48,611 nt of DNA from a bacterium. GTDB lineage: Bacteria; Vulcanimicrobiota; Vulcanimicrobiia; Vulcanimicrobiales; Vulcanimicrobiaceae. The notes beneath the pieces are model-generated. The model was given only the letters and a program-made list of their open reading frames with translations, made no database searches and was not told the origin of the DNA. Below, in pieces: positions 15,128 through 28,243 of the stretch. The stretch covers positions 1-48,611 of the forward strand of contig JAJYFM010000006.1 of NCBI GenBank assembly GCA_021790895.1. Reading direction: 5' to 3'. Numbering within the stretch: position 1 is the first letter of the stretch; each line of letters begins with the position of its first letter. The translations under genes and the position numbers were made by a program.

Positions 15128-15976
15128 TTAGCGCACCCGCCCCTCGGCGCTGTAGACGTTGGCGCGGTGCCCGCGTAGAAAGCCGATCAGCGTAATTCCG
15201 AAGCGCCTGCCGAGATCGACGGCGAGACTACTCGGCGCGGAGATCGAGGCGAGCATGGGAACCTGGGCGGCGATCGCCTTCTGCACCAGTTCGAAACTCG
15301 CGCGTCCGCTCACCAAGGCGATGCGCCCTTTCAGCGGCAGTTTATCGGCGAGGAATGCCTCGCCGATGACTTTATCGAGGGCGTTATGGCGGCCGATGTC
15401 TTCGCGCAGGACGAGCAACTCCCCGGAAGCATCGAAGAGCGCCGTTGCATGCAGGCCGCCGGTGCGTTCGAAGATGGGTTGTGCTGCGCGCATTCGCTCC
15501 GGCAACGCATAGAGCGTCTCCGTAGCGACCGTCGTCGCATCGTCGATTCGGTCGAGCCCCCGAGCCTCAAGCGCATCGATGCTTTCGCGCCCGCAAATGC
15601 CGCAAGCACCGTAGCCGGTAAAGAGGCGCGTATGCGCGCTTAAATCCGGCAACGATCGTGCGCGCAACTCGACGTTCACGATGTTGTAGCGCTGTTCTTG
15701 CTCGATATCGTCGTCGAGACAATAAGAAATGCCGACGATCTCCTCGCGCGATTTCACGATCCCTTCGTTGAAGAGAAAGCCCGCCGTAAGTTCGAAATCG
15801 TGCCCCGGCGTTCGCATCGTGAGCGCGAGCGAGCGGCGCTCTGCGCCTGCAGCCAATCGGATCTCCAGCGGCTCTTCGACCGCAACACGATCGTCGTGGC
15901 GAGTGCGCACGCCGTCGTCGATGACGATGGTCGTGAGGTCGGCGCTGCGGCCGGGGCGCGTCGAGAATTCGTTCAC
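15128..15976 (-). CDS. fdhD: formate dehydrogenase accessory sulfurtransferase FdhD
   Basis: TMRTPGHDFELTAGFLFNEGIV, GYGACGICGRESIDAL (CxxC), DIGRHNALDKVIG, SGRASFELVQKA. Confidence 0.94.
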   Translation of the reverse strand: MNEFSTRPGRSADLTTIVIDDGVRTRHDDRVAVEEPLEIRLAAGAERRSLALTMRTPGHDFELTAGFLFNEGIVKSREEIVGISYCLDDDIEQEQRYNIVNVELRARSLPDLSAHTRLFTGYGACGICGRESIDALEARGLDRIDDATTVATETLYALPERMRAAQPIFERTGGLHATALFDASGELLVLREDIGRHNALDKVIGEAFLADKLPLKGRIALVSGRASFELVQKAIAAQVPMLASISAPSSLAVDLGRRFGITLIGFLRGHRANVYSAEGRVR

Positions 15977-16893
15977 GAAGGCTGTCGGAAAGCAACGTGC
16001 GGGTCGTTTGCGGAGAGTTTCCCCGCTTCGATGAGGCTTTCGCGAAGGACGTATCCGCCGACGAGCGTCAACGTCGATGCAGCAATACTCCGCAGCGCAT
16101 CGAGAGACTTCGGCAGTTTAAAAGCGCCGCCGATCGCATTCAAGGCAAACGGTACGACGATGCCTCCGAGAATAGTGAAGTCGCGAAGGCGTGTGCCGAC
16201 GCGCCCTTCAAAAAATGGAGCGGTCGCGGCACCACCGCGCCGACGGAAATCCGCGATAAGCGCAACTTCAAGGGCCGATGCCGCCATTTCGAGGCGCTCG
16301 AGGCGTGGAATGACGTCGTGATTCCCTTGAAGCGTCGAGAGCAGCGTTGCGAGGGCGCTCGCGCTCGCCGCGCCGGAGCAGACGGAGAAGGCCGGAATAT
16401 GGCGCTTTCCGGTCGCCCAGAACGGAATTGCCGTCGCGCTAATAAGGACGCCGGTATAACCGGCCATGAAGGCACCCAAGAGCGCTTGAATGGGAACGGT
16501 GGCGCTCGGCGCGATGTAGCGGAGCATTTTCGGAACGATTCCATCGTCGGCGAGTTCGCGCACCGCATTTGCGCCCGCCGCGCCGGAATAGAGTACGAGC
16601 CCCCAGACGCCGAGCGACATCGGCGATTTGAATTTGACGATGCGCAACATATTGAAGAAGCGTTCGGGGCGTCCGAGGTGCGAGATTAAAATCGGCGGAT
16701 TGATTGCCGCTAATGCAAATGCGGTGTAGCGCGTCGCTTTGCGCAGTTTTTTCATCTCCGGCTCCGGCCGGTCGTCGGCGAGGAGGGAGATGAGGCCGAG
16801 CCCACCCATGATGCCGCCAAGGAACAGGTAGGTAACGACATTCGAGCCCCAGTGCGGGCCCTTCAGCAAGGGACGGTCGTAGTAGCTCTTCAT
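15973..16893 (-). CDS. NrfD/PsrC-type membrane subunit
   Basis: YYDRPLLKGPHWGSNVVTYLFLGGIMGGLGLISLL... multi-spanning; located between fdhB and fdhD. Confidence 0.88.
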   Translation of the reverse strand: MKSYYDRPLLKGPHWGSNVVTYLFLGGIMGGLGLISLLADDRPEPEMKKLRKATRYTAFALAAINPPILISHLGRPERFFNMLRIVKFKSPMSLGVWGLVLYSGAAGANAVRELADDGIVPKMLRYIAPSATVPIQALLGAFMAGYTGVLISATAIPFWATGKRHIPAFSVCSGAASASALATLLSTLQGNHDVIPRLERLEMAASALEVALIADFRRRGGAATAPFFEGRVGTRLRDFTILGGIVVPFALNAIGGAFKLPKSLDALRSIAASTLTLVGGYVLRESLIEAGKLSANDPHVAFRQPS

Positions 16894-17753
16894 GCTGCAC
16901 CTCCCTCGCCGCGGAAGATCGCCCAGCCGATCGTTGCCAGCGTCAGCGCCGCAAAGGCGGCTGCGGCGTAGCCCATCGCCTGTCGCGTCGAGGGAAGTAC
17001 CGGCTCGGCAGGCAGATTGTAGGCCTCGGGGCTATCGGTAAGAAGAAAAAATGCGTTGAGCGCGCCGATGCCGCCGCCGACATCATCGGCGCCGTATAAG
17101 CGTGCATCGACGCCGCGTGCTTGCAACGTTTCGACACGACGCTTCGCTCGCTCGCGTAAGTCGTCGATCTCGCCGAATTGAATCGATTCGGTCGGGCAGG
17201 CCTTCGCACAGGCCGGTACCATACCGACACGTTGACGGTCGTAACAGAGCGTACACTTTCCGGCGACGCCGCCGGTCGCTTGCACGGCGGTCTTCCGTTC
17301 GTTGAGACGATCGTCATGCAGGGTGGCGACGCTATATTTCGCCGCATCGTCGCCGCGCCCGACCGCTTCGATAAGGTCGATGACGCCGAATGGGCAAGAA
17401 ACGACGCAGTACCCGCAGCCGTTGCAGATATCGGGCTGGACGAAGACGCTACCGAATTCGTTGCGAATGATCGCGCCGGTCGGACAGGCCTCCAAGCATC
17501 CGGCATGCGTGCAGTGCTTGCAGACATCGCTCAGCATCGACCAACTCGTGGCGATTCCCTCTGCGTCGACCGATTCGCGTTCGACGAAGTCAACGTGTCG
17601 CCAGGTCGTTCCTGAGAGCTGGCTGGTGTTGTCGTACGAGTTACCGGTAAATTCGAAGCCATCCGAAGGGAGCTCGTTCCACTGTTTACACGCGACTTCG
17701 CAGGCCTTGCAGCCGATGCAGAGCGTGGAATCGGTAAAGAAGCCGGTTGCCAT
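16890..17753 (-). CDS. formate dehydrogenase iron-sulfur (4x[4Fe-4S]) subunit with C-terminal TM helix
   Basis: CIGCKACEVACKQWNELP, CKHCTHAGCLEACPTGAI, CNGCGYCVVSCPFGVI, CTLCYDRQRVGMVPACAKACPTESI; one C-terminal hydrophobic helix. Confidence 0.94.
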   Translation of the reverse strand: MATGFFTDSTLCIGCKACEVACKQWNELPSDGFEFTGNSYDNTSQLSGTTWRHVDFVERESVDAEGIATSWSMLSDVCKHCTHAGCLEACPTGAIIRNEFGSVFVQPDICNGCGYCVVSCPFGVIDLIEAVGRGDDAAKYSVATLHDDRLNERKTAVQATGGVAGKCTLCYDRQRVGMVPACAKACPTESIQFGEIDDLRERAKRRVETLQARGVDARLYGADDVGGGIGALNAFFLLTDSPEAYNLPAEPVLPSTRQAMGYAAAAFAALTLATIGWAIFRGEGGAA

Positions 17754-20700
17754 CAGCGTCGTTCTCCGGCGTCGACTCCGTGTGCTGCTCCGGCACCGTA
17801 TTCATGTCGCTGCGCATCGGGAACCGCAGCCTCGATGCTTCCGGCGATGCGCGCCGCGCGCCGACCGGGGCGAATCGCGCACGTTAAGGATTTCGCTTCG
17901 TGGATGGAGACATTCGGATCCATCGAGAGCGCGATCAGCCCCCCCGGTGAATCTCCGCGCGCAAAACCGACCATGCGACCGTAATTATACGGAATGCCGA
18001 TTTGGTGAATGCGTTGCCCCTTCCCAATGCGCAAGGGTTGCATGCGGCCGCTCACCAGCGCGCGCGCTTCCATCTCGCCGAGCGCCGTCGAGATCGTGAC
18101 GTAGCTGCCGTTGGCGATGCCTTTTTCAACGGCGAGCTCGGGATCGATCTCGCAGAACGCCTCCGGTTGCAGTTCGGCAAGCCAAGGAATATAGCGTGTC
18201 ATAATGCCCGACATCTCCGTTATGCGATAGGTCGTCAGAACGTAGGGAAAATCGGGATCGACCGCGCGGTTGTAGCGATTGTCGTCACGTTTCCATTCGC
18301 GCAGCAGCGGATTACTCTGTTGTCCGTACAGCGGATTCTCGATGACCGATTGTAACGGTTCGTAATGCGCCGGAAGCGGAGCGTCGACGAGCGCGCCGGC
18401 CACGAAGAGTTGCCCGCGTCCGTCGAGGTTCATAATGAACGGGTCGGCACCGGAGTGCGCATCGATACCGATCGCATCTGCGCGCGCCGGCGTCGCCGGA
18501 TCCTTCCCTTTTGGAAAATCCGGTACATCATCGCCGGTCCATTCGCGTCGTTGCGCGTCCCACCAAATATATTTTTTTCGCTCGCTCCACGGATTACCGG
18601 CGGGATCCGCCGAGGCGCGGTTGTAGAGGGTGCGCCGATTCGCAGGCCACGCCCAGCCCCATCCGGGTGAACTCGTTCCGTCGGCGATGCGTCCGCGGGC
18701 GCGGTTCGTCGTTGCATCGGGGCAGACGCCGGAGTAAATCCAGCAGCCGCTCGCGGTGCTGCCGTCATCGGCAAGATCGGCGAAGCCCGCGACCTGCCGC
18801 CCGTCGGCGACGGTAAACCCATTGATCTCGTGAAGGACGCGCAAGGCCGAAGGTTCGCCGGAGGCGCGCTCGCGTTCATCTTCGTGATCGTAGTTCCAGG
18901 TCATATCGAGAATCGGCCGATCTTTTGGGTCCTGCGAGTCGGCGTAGAGTGCTTTGAGCCGTTTCCCGAGATCGTAAAAATACCAAAGATCGCTTTTCGC
19001 GTCGCCGAGCGGTTCGATCGCACGGTCGTGCCATTGCAGCACGCGTGAGGTTTGCGTCATCGTCCCTTCTTTTTCGAGCACCGTTGCTCCGGGAAGGAAG
19101 AAGACCTCCGTGCCGATCGTTGTTGCATCGGCGCCTTCGCGTTTCCAGAACGAGACCGTCTCGTTGTCGAAAAAGTCGATGTTCACCAACCAATCAAGGC
19201 GTTCCATCGCCGAACTCACTAATTCGGCATTCTGCCCGGAGGCGCCGGGGTTCTGACCGATGACGAAGTAGCCTTTGACCGACCCGTCTTTCATCGCAAA
19301 CGTAGTCGGAAGTACCGAATGGTCGCCGACGAGTTGTGGAAGATAAGCATAGCAGAACTCGTTCTCTGCGCGCGCGGCGTCGCCGTAAAACGCTTTGAGT
19401 AATGAAACGACGTACTTCGGCGTATTCGCCCACCAGCCGGTTTTTTTCGTGTTCTTCTCCAGGTACCGAGTGAGTGTCTGTTCGTCACGCAACGCCGACG
19501 GCATCGGCAGATAGCCGGGCAACAAATCGTAGAGCGTGGGTACGTCGGTCGCGCCTTGAATATCGGCATGCCCGCGCAGGGCCATGATGCCGCCGCCGGG
19601 ACGCCCGATATTGCCGAGCAAGAGCTGCAAAATTGCTGCGGTTCGAACGAATTGCACGCCGGTCGTGTGCTGCGTCCAGCCGACGGCATAGGCGAATGCC
19701 GAGGTGCGCTCTCGCCCGCTATTGCTCGCCAACAGCTCGGCGATTTTTAAGAACAGGTGTTGCGGCGTACCGCAGACGCGTTCGACCATCTCCGGAGTAT
19801 AGCGAGAGAAATGACGACGAAGAACGTTGAGTACGCAGCGCGGATGCTGCAAGCTAACGTCGCGCCGAAGCGACCCGTCCTCATTTCGTTCAAAACTCCA
19901 GCTTGAGGTATCATAGGAGTTCGTCTCGGCGTTCCAGCCTGAAAACATGCCGTCGAGATCTTCGGTGTCGACGAAATTATCACTCACGATCGAGCCGGCG
20001 TTGGTATATGCGGCAACGTAGTCGCGAAAGTAGCGCTCGTTCGAGAGAACGTAGTTGATGATGCCGCCTAAGAACGCGATATCCGTTCCGCTGCGGATCG
20101 GCGCATAGAGATCGGCGACCGCCGACGTGCGCGTAAAACGGGGATCGACGTGAATAATGGTAGCACCGCGTTCCTTTGCCTTCATGACGAAACGGAACGC
20201 GACCGGATGCGCTTCAGCGAAGTTCGATCCCTGAATGAGAATGCAGTCGGCGTTTTCGAGATCGGGGAGCCAAACGGTTGCTCCGCCGCGGCCGAACGAG
20301 GTGCCCAGACCGGGCACCGTCGAGGAGTGTCATATTCGCGCTTGGTTTTCGATCGCGACGACGCCGAGACTATGCATCAATTTGCCGAGGAGGTAGTTCT
20401 CCTCGATGCCGAACGTTGCGCCGCCGAGCGAAGCAATGCCCAACGTATGATTGAGGCGCTTCCCATCGTGCTCGCGAACGAAGGTGGCGTCGCGCGTCTC
20501 CTTCACGCGGGCGGCGATGCGCTCGAGTGCCCATGCAAGCGGTTTCTCTTCCCAGTGCGTTGCATACGGAGCGCGATAGTGGACGGTCGTCCAACGTCGA
20601 TCGTTGATCGTCATGCCGAAGATCGCCGATCCCTTCGGACAGAGATGCCCGGCATTGATCGGGCTATCGGGGTTCCCTTCGACGTCGAGCAATTTGCCCG

Positions 20701-20905
20701 AGTCATCGACATAGGCGAGCGTGCTGCAACCGACGGCGCAGTACGGGCACACGCTGGTGACCGCCTTCGCGCCGTCGATGCGAGCCCGGAGGTGTTGAGT
20801 GCGTTGCGAGGCGACGTTCGGCAATTCGCCGATGCGTTCGTTCAAGATAGAACGCGTGCTGCGATCGGTCGCGAGCCCGGTAATGTCGATCGTCGTTTTC
20901 GCCAT
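17753..20905 (-). CDS. selenocysteine-containing formate dehydrogenase alpha subunit (UGA at 20332..20330 read as Sec)
   Basis: ORFs 20330..20905 and 17753..20317 share a frame and are separated only by TGA: ...GVVAIENQARI-[UGA]-HSSTVPGLGTSFGRGGATVWLPDLENADCILIQGSNFAEAHP, matching the NQARV-U-H context of FdnG/FdhF-type enzymes. N-terminal CPYCAVGCS...CPKG [4Fe-4S] motif. 3153 nt = 1050 aa with Sec. Confidence 0.93.
20300..20318 (-). promoter_or_regulatory. bacterial SECIS hairpin of fdhA
   Basis: RNA sense: UGA-CACUCCUCGAC(11 nt)-GGUGCCC-GGUCU-GGGCACC; perfect 7-bp stem, GGUCU apical loop. As I recall, E. coli fdhF SECIS has the same loop and spacing. Confidence 0.9.
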
Positions 20906-20928: not shown

Positions 20929-22237
20929 TTATGCGTTCGATGGTATTTGCGGTTTTTTAATGAGGAATGGGATGACCGCAGCGATGACGAGCATGATGGC
21001 GATCGTCGAGAGCGCACCGGTGTACGAACCCGTCTTGTCTTGCACGAATCCAGCGATCGCCGGCCCGACGACGCCGCCGAGGCCCCACGCCGTGAGGATG
21101 AAGCCGTAGATCTCGCCCATGTTCGCAGTGCCGAAGTAATCGGCGTTAAATGACGGCATAACGCCGAAGCCGCCGCCGTAGCAGAGCAGAACGATTGCGA
21201 AGCAGATGAGGACGCCGGTGAGGCCGGCAACGTGCCCTACGGTGAAAAAGATCACCACTTGAATGAGATACATTACCGTATAGGTGAGATTTCTTCCGAG
21301 TCGATCGGAGACCGACCCCCAGAAGAATCGCCCGAGGCCGTTAAAAACGGCGATCAAACCGTACCAGAGCGCCGCAGTCGGAATACCGACCGCCGCGAAT
21401 TGGCTGATCATCGGCACGGCATTGGAGATCACAAAGATGCCGGCGGTGACGTTGAGGAAGAGTAATAGCCAGAGACCATAGAGCTGCGGCGTTTTGAAGG
21501 CCTGCGCCATGGTAAAACCATTGCCCGAGGATGTCGCTGTTTGCGGTGTCGGCGGATTTTTCAGCGCGAACGCTGCGATACCACCGAGCACGATGAAGAC
21601 GATTCCCGAGACGAGAAGGATGCTCATCAACCCGTGCATGAGGTCGTGCGAGAGCTGATAGGACGTCGGGTCGAACGGAGTCCCGGCTTTGATCGATGCG
21701 TCGCGCGCTTTCACGTAGGCGAGCGCAGGTTTTGCAATCGCGGCGTATGCCGCCATGCGCGTGACGACCTGATTGTAGAAAAATGCGCCGAGTCCGAAAC
21801 CCATCACGACGAGGCCGCTGCCCAAGCCGCGCATATCGGGGAACCATTTCGTGACCATCGCCACCGGCGTGACATAGGCCATGCCGTTGCCGAAGCCGCC
21901 GATAACTCCGTAGGTGACGAGCATCCACGTATGCCCGAAGTGTTGCGTGCCGAGGCCGGCGAGAAAGACGCCGACTCCCCAAACGAGTGCGCCGACGATC
22001 GTGACGGTGCGCGGCCCGACGCGGTCCTGCCAACGTCCGCCGACGAAGGCTCCGAGACCGAGAAAGAAGATTGCGGTTTCGAACGGCGTTGTCGCTTGCT
22101 GCGTCGACCAATTAAATCCGGCGATGAGCGCGTTGGTGAAGATACTCCACGAATAAACGGTTCCCAGGCAGATCATCACGATGATGCCTGCAATCGCGAT
22201 TCCCCAGCGGTTGGAACCCGGAGCGGTTGCGTCCATA
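20929..22237 (-). CDS. MFS transporter, oxalate/formate antiporter (OxlT)-like
   Basis: MDATAPGSNRWGIAIAGIIVMICLGTVYSWSIFTNALI... from ATG at 22237; 12-TM pattern; adjacent to fdhA. Confidence 0.88.
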
Positions 22238-22346
22238 GTTCTCTCCTTCAGGTGCGGTTGCGCCTCAGCAAACGGGCGCGTGCAAACTACAAACAAGCCT
22301 ACTGCGGCGCGGTTGCAAGGGCCTGGAAAGACGTTGCTAGATTTAT

Positions 22347-23063
22347 TTAGCGATTGCTCGGCGCGCGCAGTCGGAGAATACTCGCATACGAAATCAGGAG
22401 CGTCGCCCCGATCAACACGGCGATGCTCCCGTCGCCGAGCGGAGAGACGAAGCCCAGTCCGGTCGCGCTCCAAAAGAGCCCAAGCGAAACGAGCATCGTG
22501 CCGACGATAAATTTCAGCGCGTTTTCGGGAACGTTCGTCAACGGAGCGTGGGCGACGATCGCGGCGATCGCAACCAGAACGGCAGCCAGCGCGGCACCGC
22601 CGATCGACCAATCGAGCGCGCCGTGCGCCGTCGCGGCAAAACTCACGACGATGATCGCTACCTCGAAGCCTTCGAGGAGAACTCCCTGGAACGCCATCGC
22701 CATCCCGACGCGGTCGTCGTGCGCTCCGCGCAGTCGTTCGTTATCGCGTTGAAAGTTCGCGGCCTCATCGCGCATGGGAATGCGCCCGGCATAACGATAG
22801 ATTGCTTTTCGGAGCCATTTCCATCCGAAATAAAGCAAGAAGAGCCCAACGATCGTTTCTATATACGGCAACGCGCTCGCGCGCACCAACAGAGCGCCGA
22901 ACGCGGCGATAAATATGGCCAGCGCGATCAGTGCGCCGAACGTGCCGAGCAACGCGACGCGTAATCCTCGCGTCAACGCGACGGCGAGAACGATCGTTGC
23001 AGCCTCCACGCACTCCACCGCTGATGCGACGAAGGTCGTTCCGGCGAGAACGGGTCCGGTCAT
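22347..23063 (-). CDS. integral membrane protein, COG4280/FTR1-like
   Basis: TM segments carrying VECVEAATIVLAVALTRG and LLEGFEVAIIVVSF, resembling the paired REGLE-type motifs of FTR1/EfeU. Confidence 0.65.
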   Translation of the reverse strand: MTGPVLAGTTFVASAVECVEAATIVLAVALTRGLRVALLGTFGALIALAIFIAAFGALLVRASALPYIETIVGLFLLYFGWKWLRKAIYRYAGRIPMRDEAANFQRDNERLRGAHDDRVGMAMAFQGVLLEGFEVAIIVVSFAATAHGALDWSIGGAALAAVLVAIAAIVAHAPLTNVPENALKFIVGTMLVSLGLFWSATGLGFVSPLGDGSIAVLIGATLLISYASILRLRAPSNR

Positions 23064-25446: not shown

Positions 25447-26385
25447 ATGTACGTGTCGGTCGATCTTTCGAAACTCACCGTCTATCGTGATGGAACCTTC
25501 TCCAACTACAACGATGCGAAGGTGGGGTTACTCACGCACGGCCTCCAGTACGGCACCGGATGTTTTGAAGGCATACGCGGTTTCTGGGTTCCTGAAGATC
25601 GCGAGCTCTATCTCTTGCTTCTTCGCGAACATTACGAACGCTTATTTAATTCGGCGAAGATTTTGTTGATGGATCTTCCTCACAGCGTCGACGAGTTAAT
25701 CGATATTACCGTCGATCTTTGCCGACGGAATGCCTTCGAAACGGATGTCTATATACGTCCTTGTATTTTCAAGTCGGCAGAAGATATCGGCGTTCGTTTG
25801 CATGGTGTACCGGCGAGCTTTGCGATGATTGCATTGCCGTTCGAGAAATACTTCGACGCATCGGTCGGGCTGAAAGCCTGCGTGAGTTCGTGGCGCCGTG
25901 CCGACGACACGATGGCCCCTCCACGAGGAAAGCTCACCGGGCTTTATGTAAATTCGGCGCTCGCGAAGAGCGAAGCGGTGCTCAACGGCTACGACGAAGC
26001 GATTATGCTCTCGCAGGATGGGCACGTTGCCGAAGGATCGGCGGAAAATATTTTTCTCGTTCGTCATGGAGCGCTCTACACGCCGGATCCATCGCAAAAC
26101 GTCTTGGAAGGTTGCACGCGACGCGCGGTGATGCACATCGCCACGGAGGTTCTCGGGTTAAAGGTCATCGAGCGCTCGATCGATCGCGGCGAACTTTATG
26201 CCGCCGACGAAGTCTTCTTCAGCGGCAGTGCGGCGGGTCTCGTTCACGCCTCCTCGGTCGATGGTCGTCGCGTCGGCGATGGAGCCTTGGGCCCGGTCGC
26301 GCGCAAGATTATGGAGGTCTACGAACGCGCCGTTCGCGGTCGCGAGCCGCGCTACATCGGTTGGGTGACGCCGACCTACCGCTAG
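25447..26385 (+). CDS. ilvE: branched-chain amino acid aminotransferase
   Basis: HGLQYGTGCFEGIRGFW, KLTGLYVNSALAKSEAVLNGYDEAIMLSQDGHVAEGSAENIFLVR; the track's upstream extension is not needed. Confidence 0.92.
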   Translation: MYVSVDLSKLTVYRDGTFSNYNDAKVGLLTHGLQYGTGCFEGIRGFWVPEDRELYLLLLREHYERLFNSAKILLMDLPHSVDELIDITVDLCRRNAFETDVYIRPCIFKSAEDIGVRLHGVPASFAMIALPFEKYFDASVGLKACVSSWRRADDTMAPPRGKLTGLYVNSALAKSEAVLNGYDEAIMLSQDGHVAEGSAENIFLVRHGALYTPDPSQNVLEGCTRRAVMHIATEVLGLKVIERSIDRGELYAADEVFFSGSAAGLVHASSVDGRRVGDGALGPVARKIMEVYERAVRGREPRYIGWVTPTYR

Positions 26386-27380
26386 CCGCCGCTGCCGACC
26401 GAGAGCGTCTGGCCGGTCCAGTAGCGGACGTCGGGAGCCTCGGGAATCGCCTGCGGCGTAATGATTTCGGCGAGGCGATTCGGCAGCCCGAGTGAGGCTC
26501 GTAACTCGGCAAGCTGCGCCATTGCGTTGAAGCTCAGCAACGACGCTTGTCGCACGATATCGCGCCCGAGTTGCGCGTCGGGGAGTCCGCTCGTCATCGC
26601 CGCAATCGCGAAGGGCGCCCCGGGTTCGTAAACGATGCCGACATCGGCCATCACGTTGTGTAACGACCCGGTCTTGTGCGCGATCGTCGTTCCGTCCGGA
26701 AGCGGCTCGGGCAGCAGCGTATCGATCTCTTGACGCGCGAGAATCTCCAGCATCGCATGTGAGGACCACGCGTCGACGAGTTTTCCGCGCGCCATACGCA
26801 CCAGCAGCGTCAGCATATCGAGCGGAGTCGTGCGAAGGTTCGTCTCCACTGCAGAAACATTCGTGCGTATCGCCGTGCGCAGATAGGTGTGGTGGCATCC
26901 GTAGATCTGCATTGCCTCATTGATGCGCTCGCGCCCGACAAGCCTGATGAGCATGTTCGCCGCCGTATTGTCGCTGATGTCGATCATTTTCGAAAGTAAT
27001 CGTTCGACGGTTATCGGGGTGCCGACCGGTGCGTACGCGAGATCGCCGGAACCGTAATCGCGATCCTCGGCGCGGAGATGCATGACGTGACCGAGCGTAA
27101 AGCGTCCGCGAGCCATGCGGCGGAAGACCTCGATCATCACCGGAATCTTAATCGTCGATGCCGCGGGCATCGAGCGATTGAGGTTGTACCCGGTGATCGC
27201 TCCGGTAGCGAGATCCTCAACGGCGATGCCGACGTTCGCGTCGCTCGAACGCGCAAGCGAACGAAACGAATCACGGAGCGACCGCATCGGTGGCGGAATC
27301 GCTGCGACGCATGGAATCGCTCCGGCCCATCCGAGCGAGGCGATGAGGAGGGCCGGAACGATCGAACGCATGCGAATCAT
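26382..27380 (-). CDS. class A beta-lactamase-related serine hydrolase, exported
   Basis: STIK (SxxK), SDN, HKTGS motifs; N-terminal signal peptide MIRMRSIVPALLIASLGWAGAIPCVAA. Confidence 0.88.
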   Translation of the reverse strand: MIRMRSIVPALLIASLGWAGAIPCVAAIPPPMRSLRDSFRSLARSSDANVGIAVEDLATGAITGYNLNRSMPAASTIKIPVMIEVFRRMARGRFTLGHVMHLRAEDRDYGSGDLAYAPVGTPITVERLLSKMIDISDNTAANMLIRLVGRERINEAMQIYGCHHTYLRTAIRTNVSAVETNLRTTPLDMLTLLVRMARGKLVDAWSSHAMLEILARQEIDTLLPEPLPDGTTIAHKTGSLHNVMADVGIVYEPGAPFAIAAMTSGLPDAQLGRDIVRQASLLSFNAMAQLAELRASLGLPNRLAEIITPQAIPEAPDVRYWTGQTLSVGSGG

Positions 27381-28243
27381 GGATAGGGCTTCCCTTCGGC
27401 AGCGGGTGGACGATATCTGCCGCTCGCACCGAGCAGCGCAATGAGGGCGGCGATGTAGGGGAGCGCTTGCAAGAAGTCGCTCGGTAACCATGCGATGTTG
27501 CCTTGTAAAGCGAACTGCAACGCTTCCAGCAAACCGAAGATCAAGGCGACGCCCGCCGCGCCGAGCGGCGTCCACCTTCCGAAAATCACCGCCGCGAGTG
27601 CGATGAACCCACGCCCGGCGATCATTCCGTCGGAGTAGAGATTGAGCTCTCCGAGCGCGAGAAAGACGCCGCCGAGCCCGGCGAGCGCGCCGGCGATCGC
27701 GCTGGCGGCGAGTCGCACGGCGAGCGGATCGATGCCGGCGGCGCGCGCAGCGTGCGGGTTTTCACCGCAGGCGCGCAGACGCAGACCGATCGGCGTTCGT
27801 GAGAGCGCCCATTGGAGCACCGCAGCAAGCAGTATTCCGAGAATGACCAACGGCCAGAGCGCTTGATTGATTGCCGGAACTTGCGGCGTCACACCGGCTT
27901 GATTGAAGACGAAGATGAGGCCGAATGCCGCACCGCCGGTGCAGATGAGGTTGATGCCCATTCCGGCAACGATTTGGTCGACGCGCCAACGCGTCGCCGC
28001 GAAACCGAGCACGAAGCCGACCGCTGCTCCGACGGCAACACCTCCGATCGCGCCGATCCACGGATCGCGCGTGAAGAACGAAATCAATGCCGCGGCAAAG
28101 GCGCCTGCCGTCATCTCTCCTTCGAGTGCGATGTTGACGATGCCGGCGCGCTCGGAGAGCACGCCGCCGAGCGAGGCAAGGAGAATCGGCGTCCCCCGAA
28201 CCAACGCGAGTGCGAGTAACGAGAGAACGAGCGAGAGCGTCAT
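27377..28243 (-). CDS. ABC transporter permease (nucleoside/BMP type)
   Basis: ILLASLGGVLSERAGIVNIALEGEMTAGAFAAALISF...; paired with a second permease and an ATPase. Confidence 0.92.
   Translation of the reverse strand: MTLSLVLSLLALALVRGTPILLASLGGVLSERAGIVNIALEGEMTAGAFAAALISFFTRDPWIGAIGGVAVGAAVGFVLGFAATRWRVDQIVAGMGINLICTGGAAFGLIFVFNQAGVTPQVPAINQALWPLVILGILLAAVLQWALSRTPIGLRLRACGENPHAARAAGIDPLAVRLAASAIAGALAGLGGVFLALGELNLYSDGMIAGRGFIALAAVIFGRWTPLGAAGVALIFGLLEALQFALQGNIAWLPSDFLQALPYIAALIALLGASGRYRPPAAEGKPYP

Follow-up and report, generated by a model that had tools for sequence, protein, structure and literature searches.

Predicted selenocysteine recoding of a formate dehydrogenase gene in a genome of Candidatus Eremiobacterota

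In the window (the whole stretch of DNA analyzed, 48,611 nucleotides), a minus-strand formate dehydrogenase gene is interrupted by an in-frame TGA, raising the question of whether this codon ends the protein or encodes selenocysteine (Sec). A plain, mechanical ORF call with table 11 divides fdhA into two products, 20905..20330 (191 aa, ATG start) and 20317..17753 (854 aa, internal GTG start). A sequence-only reading had proposed that the TGA at 20332..20330 joins two same-frame ORFs at the Sec/Cys active-site position, and this proved exact: the UGA links a 191-codon frame to one of ~857-859 codons in a single fdhA and lies in NQARI-U-HSSTV at residue 192. Translated with TGA as Sec, the gene yields one protein in which this context continues as NQARI-U-HSSTVPGLG. 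In the window, TGA joins 26 pairs of frames that each exceed 100 codons; the fdhA pair has the longest downstream frame among them (859 codons) and carries a 7-bp stem at SECIS spacing. The features concerned are as follows.

17756..20905, minus strand: fdhA/fdnG-like formate dehydrogenase alpha subunit, 1050 residues with predicted Sec192, TGA stop at 17755..17753
20330..20332, minus strand: in-frame UGA, predicted selenocysteine 192 (translation with TGA as U; TGA in all homologues read)
20300..20318, minus strand: predicted bacterial SECIS stem-loop, 7-bp stem, GGUCU loop beginning 18 nt past the UGA

FdhA scores above cut-off against the models for formate dehydrogenase-N alpha (TIGR01553, 1003.6 bits vs 814.2) and formate_DH_Act (NF041513, 1435.5 bits vs 1400), and its closest solved structures are the Sec formate dehydrogenases 9qm0 and 6sdv and E. 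coli FdnG (1kqf), with E < 1e-230. The enzyme had earlier been described as FdhF/FdnG-type; the FdnG half of that label holds, the protein being FdnG/FdoG-like by its TIGR01553 score and not FdhF-like. Homology to E. coli FdnG (1kqf)/FdoG is near full length (E 6e-234). E. coli FdnG/FdoG is a Sec enzyme with a SECIS just past its UGA. The Sec FdhAB of Desulfovibrio (6sdv, 9qm0, 1h0h) provides the closest solved structures, its QARI-[Sec]-HS-TVP aligning with FdhA, and in the PDB comparison the fdhA UGA falls at the position of Sec in the solved selenocysteine formate dehydrogenases. Relatives under NF041513 in Ktedonobacteria, Mycolicibacter, Corynebacterium and Kocuria share ~49-55% identity with FdhA and all have TGA at the site; FdhA differs from these Actinomycetota and Ktedonobacteria proteins in coming from another phylum and in sequence divergence only.

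Three genes follow fdhA on the same strand with overlapping ends.

16890..17753, minus strand: FdhB-like 4Fe-4S electron-transfer subunit (best match TIGR01582, 163.7 bits, short of the equivalog cut-off of 334.7; Fer4 domains)
15973..16893, minus strand: NrfD-type membrane subunit (Pfam NrfD, 71.5 bits)
15128..15976, minus strand: fdhD, sulfurtransferase for formate dehydrogenase maturation (NF001943, 287.4 bits, and TIGR00129, 168.5 bits, both above cut-off)

The NrfD-type subunit is presumably quinone-reacting. Relative to Desulfovibrio FdhAB, the operon adds this NrfD-like third subunit and fdhD. It also differs from the E. coli FdnG/FdoG systems, in that no twin-arginine (RR) motif was found by eye in the FdhA N terminus MAKTTIDITGLATDRSTRSILNERIGELP, and the operon contains no FdnI-type cytochrome b gamma subunit, its third gene being NrfD-type. 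Because the N terminus lacks a visible twin-arginine motif, the complex is likely to face the cytoplasm and to be coupled through NrfD. Directly upstream of fdhA on the same strand lies an MFS transporter gene (20929-22611, minus strand) matching oxalate/formate-antiporter and lactate-transporter families (NF049980, 331 bits, above cut-off; TIGR00890, the oxalate/formate family, 210 bits, below); because TIGR00890 aligns from residue 135 onward, the true start probably lies downstream of the called one. Elsewhere in the window, 26382-27575 (minus strand) encodes a protein with a domain of the beta-lactamase family (Pfam PF13354, 205 bits) that stays below all the NCBIfam cut-offs listed for named beta-lactamases.

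An alignment of FdhA homologues for Cys versus Sec had been suggested, and in it TGA occupies the site in every homologue readable there (~72 distinct contexts), with no Cys or other sense codon. This figure counts distinct contexts after removal of duplicates from two partly overlapping sets. One, from public genomes, comprises 32 loci with the codon read by alignment and L048 with it read by motif, and spans Eremiobacterota, Ktedonobacteria and other Chloroflexota, Actinomycetota, Evansella (Bacillota) and a Gemmataceae MAG, all with TGA; the other, a search of the phylum, gave TGA in 50 of 50 loci, the window's own copy included. Fifteen phylum members in which the match stopped short of the UGA region were suspected of carrying Cys versions, and the DNA upstream of the match has TGA in all 15. 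The phylum also holds a second, more distant formate dehydrogenase type (L103, L104, L105 and L106; 40-43% identity) with QQARV or NQARV-U-HGPTV, in which TGA precedes a shorter SECIS-like stem. In a further match, L078 (G095:C51:16318-19512), there are two TGA codons, the Sec codon and another that is possibly the terminal stop, as the match reaches query residue 1051.

Codon differences between fdhA and seven close relatives number 56-71 synonymous and 11-18 non-synonymous upstream of the UGA, and 297-336 synonymous and 51-81 non-synonymous downstream of it, with no other stop. Because changes fall mostly at third positions on both sides of the UGA, the downstream part is translated and selected, and by these counts the frame is under the same purifying constraint on either side.

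The hairpin was likewise found exactly as described, a perfect 7-bp GGUGCCC-GGUCU-GGGCACC structure (20318..20300) that begins 11 nt past the UGA. On the minus strand the TGA is followed by those 11 nt (20329..20319), GGTGCCC (20318..20312), GGTCT (20311..20307) and GGGCACC (20306..20300). Each strand of the window has 54 perfect 7-bp hairpins with 3-8 nt loops, or roughly one every 900 nt; by chance, a given UGA would therefore have such a hairpin at the right spacing in ~2-3% of cases. A 47-nt segment folds with an MFE of -18 kcal/mol, and its z of -1.68 against shuffles is unremarkable for a single sequence. Given the frequency of chance hairpins and a z of only about -1.7, the hairpin alone is weak evidence, and, fold energy by itself being unremarkable, support for a SECIS comes from covariation and codon conservation.

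Covariation was scored over 23 distinct sequences, with 500 shuffles and the stem slid by 1-3 columns as controls. Stem cells were paired in 94.4% of cases, compared with 80.4% in shuffles and 30-55% in slid stems, and 17 cells had changed on both sides, compared with 4.4 in shuffles and at most 7 in slid stems. The stem's covariation score was reached in 0 of 500 shuffles; these ignore the relatedness of the sequences, while the slid control retains it and agrees with them. Pair 18-30 occurs as GC, UA, GU, CG, AU and UG and pair 21-27 as CG, GC and UA, three of the seven stem pairs being invariant. The loop reads GGUCU, AGUUU or AGUCU across homologues. In the bacterial SECIS model a G stands among the first two loop positions, 16-37 nt from the UGA (PMC13188914), and the fdhA hairpin agrees in both loop and spacing. 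Rfam SECIS_3 (RF01989) matches it end to end (1-59, 33.8 bits, E 3.5e-6). The hairpin would work like SECIS_3, but it stays under the gathering score of 63 bits and does not count among the members of that family. Searched with a covariance model built on the formate dehydrogenase SECIS, the window's own genome gave one confident match, the window copy (E 2e-13); weak matches at C1:22729 (E 0.016) and C28:1980 (E 2.9) were set aside as chance, their surroundings showing nothing Sec-like on inspection.

Genes for Sec synthesis and insertion had been predicted elsewhere in the genome, and all four are present in the same assembly above their cut-offs. The assembly is a MAG of 2.10 Mb in 154 contigs (84% complete, 0.11% contamination), and the membership of the sel contigs in the genome rests on this binning. 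Adjoining selA (474.7 bits vs 267.9) and selB (302.8 bits vs 242) lie on contig C91, selD (363.6 bits vs 125) on C50 and the tRNA-Sec gene (67.4 bits vs 47) on C74, the last also called tRNA-SeC with anticodon tca by ARAGORN. By eye, the tRNA-Sec(UCA) has an 8-bp acceptor stem (GGGAGAGU/ACUUUCCC, with one G-U) and a 5-bp T stem, and this 8+5 architecture is the bacterial form of tRNA-Sec. Neither selA nor selB of this genome contains an internal TGA; a selA match with one internal TGA was seen at G134:C21:69523-70815.

The selD gene (G000:C50:22402-23322; L018:1501-2421) has an in-frame TGA of its own at L018:1531-1533, in LSSCAG-U-ASK, at its active-site position, which we take to be that of Cys17 in E. 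coli SelD. Two strong hairpins lie past it, the second of which, GCGCAG-GUU-CUGCGC, stands ~30 nt downstream at SECIS spacing, and many selD genes of the family likewise have one internal TGA. By codon and hairpin, selD is a second predicted selenoprotein gene of this genome, itself in the selenocysteine pathway.

Since the window belongs to a draft MAG, the TGA might be put down to faulty sequencing or to a nonsense mutation, the gene being in truth a pseudogene or one for a Cys enzyme. We consider this extremely improbable: the same TGA occurs in all independent homologues read, from isolates as well as MAGs, without a single sense codon, and the codons downstream of it are under purifying selection. 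Since the TGA is kept in homologues of several phyla, error or a broken gene is excluded as its source. It is just as improbable that UGA has been reassigned throughout the genome, for example to Trp or Gly. Nothing was found in favor of this, and the frame is open with TGA read as any residue; against it, fdhA itself terminates in TGA, selA and selB are free of internal TGA, the 8+5 tRNA-Sec(UCA) is present, and the UGA stands at a known Sec site with a covarying SECIS.

The hairpin could still be incidental, with conservation of the VPGLG peptide forcing a palindrome and the UGA decoded without the hairpin or through another downstream signal. The stem does overlap the conserved V-P-[GS]-L-G, and its three unvarying pairs would fit such an origin, but synonymous positions co-vary at pairs 18-30 and 21-27 where the peptide makes no such demand, and no shuffle attained the observed score. 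We therefore regard an incidental hairpin as very unlikely.

Recoding by Sec, as the sequence-only reading had it, thus draws support from the invariant UGA together with compensatory pair changes. Codon, conservation, covarying hairpin, complete sel set, protein family and operon were each observed directly in this analysis, and fdhA is almost certainly a bona fide selenoprotein gene whose UGA-192 is predicted to be read as Sec through SelB and the GGUCU hairpin. The gene belongs to a common family of bacterial selenoproteins, in which it is nothing unusual, and both the kind of gene and the recoding mechanism are textbook.

Beyond these observations, we infer that Sec is incorporated, which metal is bound, that formate is oxidized in vivo and that the complex couples to quinone. 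With the ribosome at UGA-192, SelB carrying Sec-tRNA-Sec would bind the GGUCU hairpin just downstream and deliver Sec in place of termination, the Sec-tRNA-Sec having been made by SerRS, SelA and SelD. Like E. coli FdnG and Desulfovibrio FdhAB, FdhA would then hold its Sec, Sec192, at a Mo/W bis-pyranopterin active site and oxidize formate to CO2. The Fe-S subunit would hand electrons on to the NrfD-type membrane protein, from which they would probably enter the quinone pool, and FdhD would sulfurate the cofactor.

The nearest named relatives, at 91% identity, place the genome in Candidatus Eremiobacterota. Among 149 species of the phylum searched (formate dehydrogenase counted at E <= 1e-150, selA above cut-off), 73 have the dehydrogenase and 121 have selA. 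The two go together: selA is present in 71 of the 73 dehydrogenase-bearing species and 50 of the 76 others (Fisher p = 2.8e-7, a test that assumes independence among species although they are related). The two genomes with the dehydrogenase and without selA or an above-cut-off selB, G085 and G120, are 70% and 83% complete, and assembly gaps are the likely explanation.

In the open-licence literature we found no paper joining Eremiobacterota with selenocysteine, an absence that is not proof; the sole WPS-2 match was unrelated, and papers pairing Eremiobacterota with selenium or formate seemed, from their titles, abstracts and term counts, to do so in passing. A phylum-wide Sec trait thus seems unreported in that literature. 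On balance we favor, with appreciable doubt, the view that Sec use, with a Sec-containing SelD and an FdnG-like formate dehydrogenase of Sec type, partnered by an NrfD-type protein, at its center, is a widespread and undescribed trait of Eremiobacterota.

Plain ORF calling halves the catalytic subunit and can thereby hide formate dehydrogenase from metabolic reconstructions of Eremiobacterota MAGs. The present locus confirms by sequence a predicted selenium-dependent formate dehydrogenase in an almost uncultured, little-studied phylum where the Sec trait is common, and, if the wider view is true, formate oxidation in Eremiobacterota would be selenium-dependent.
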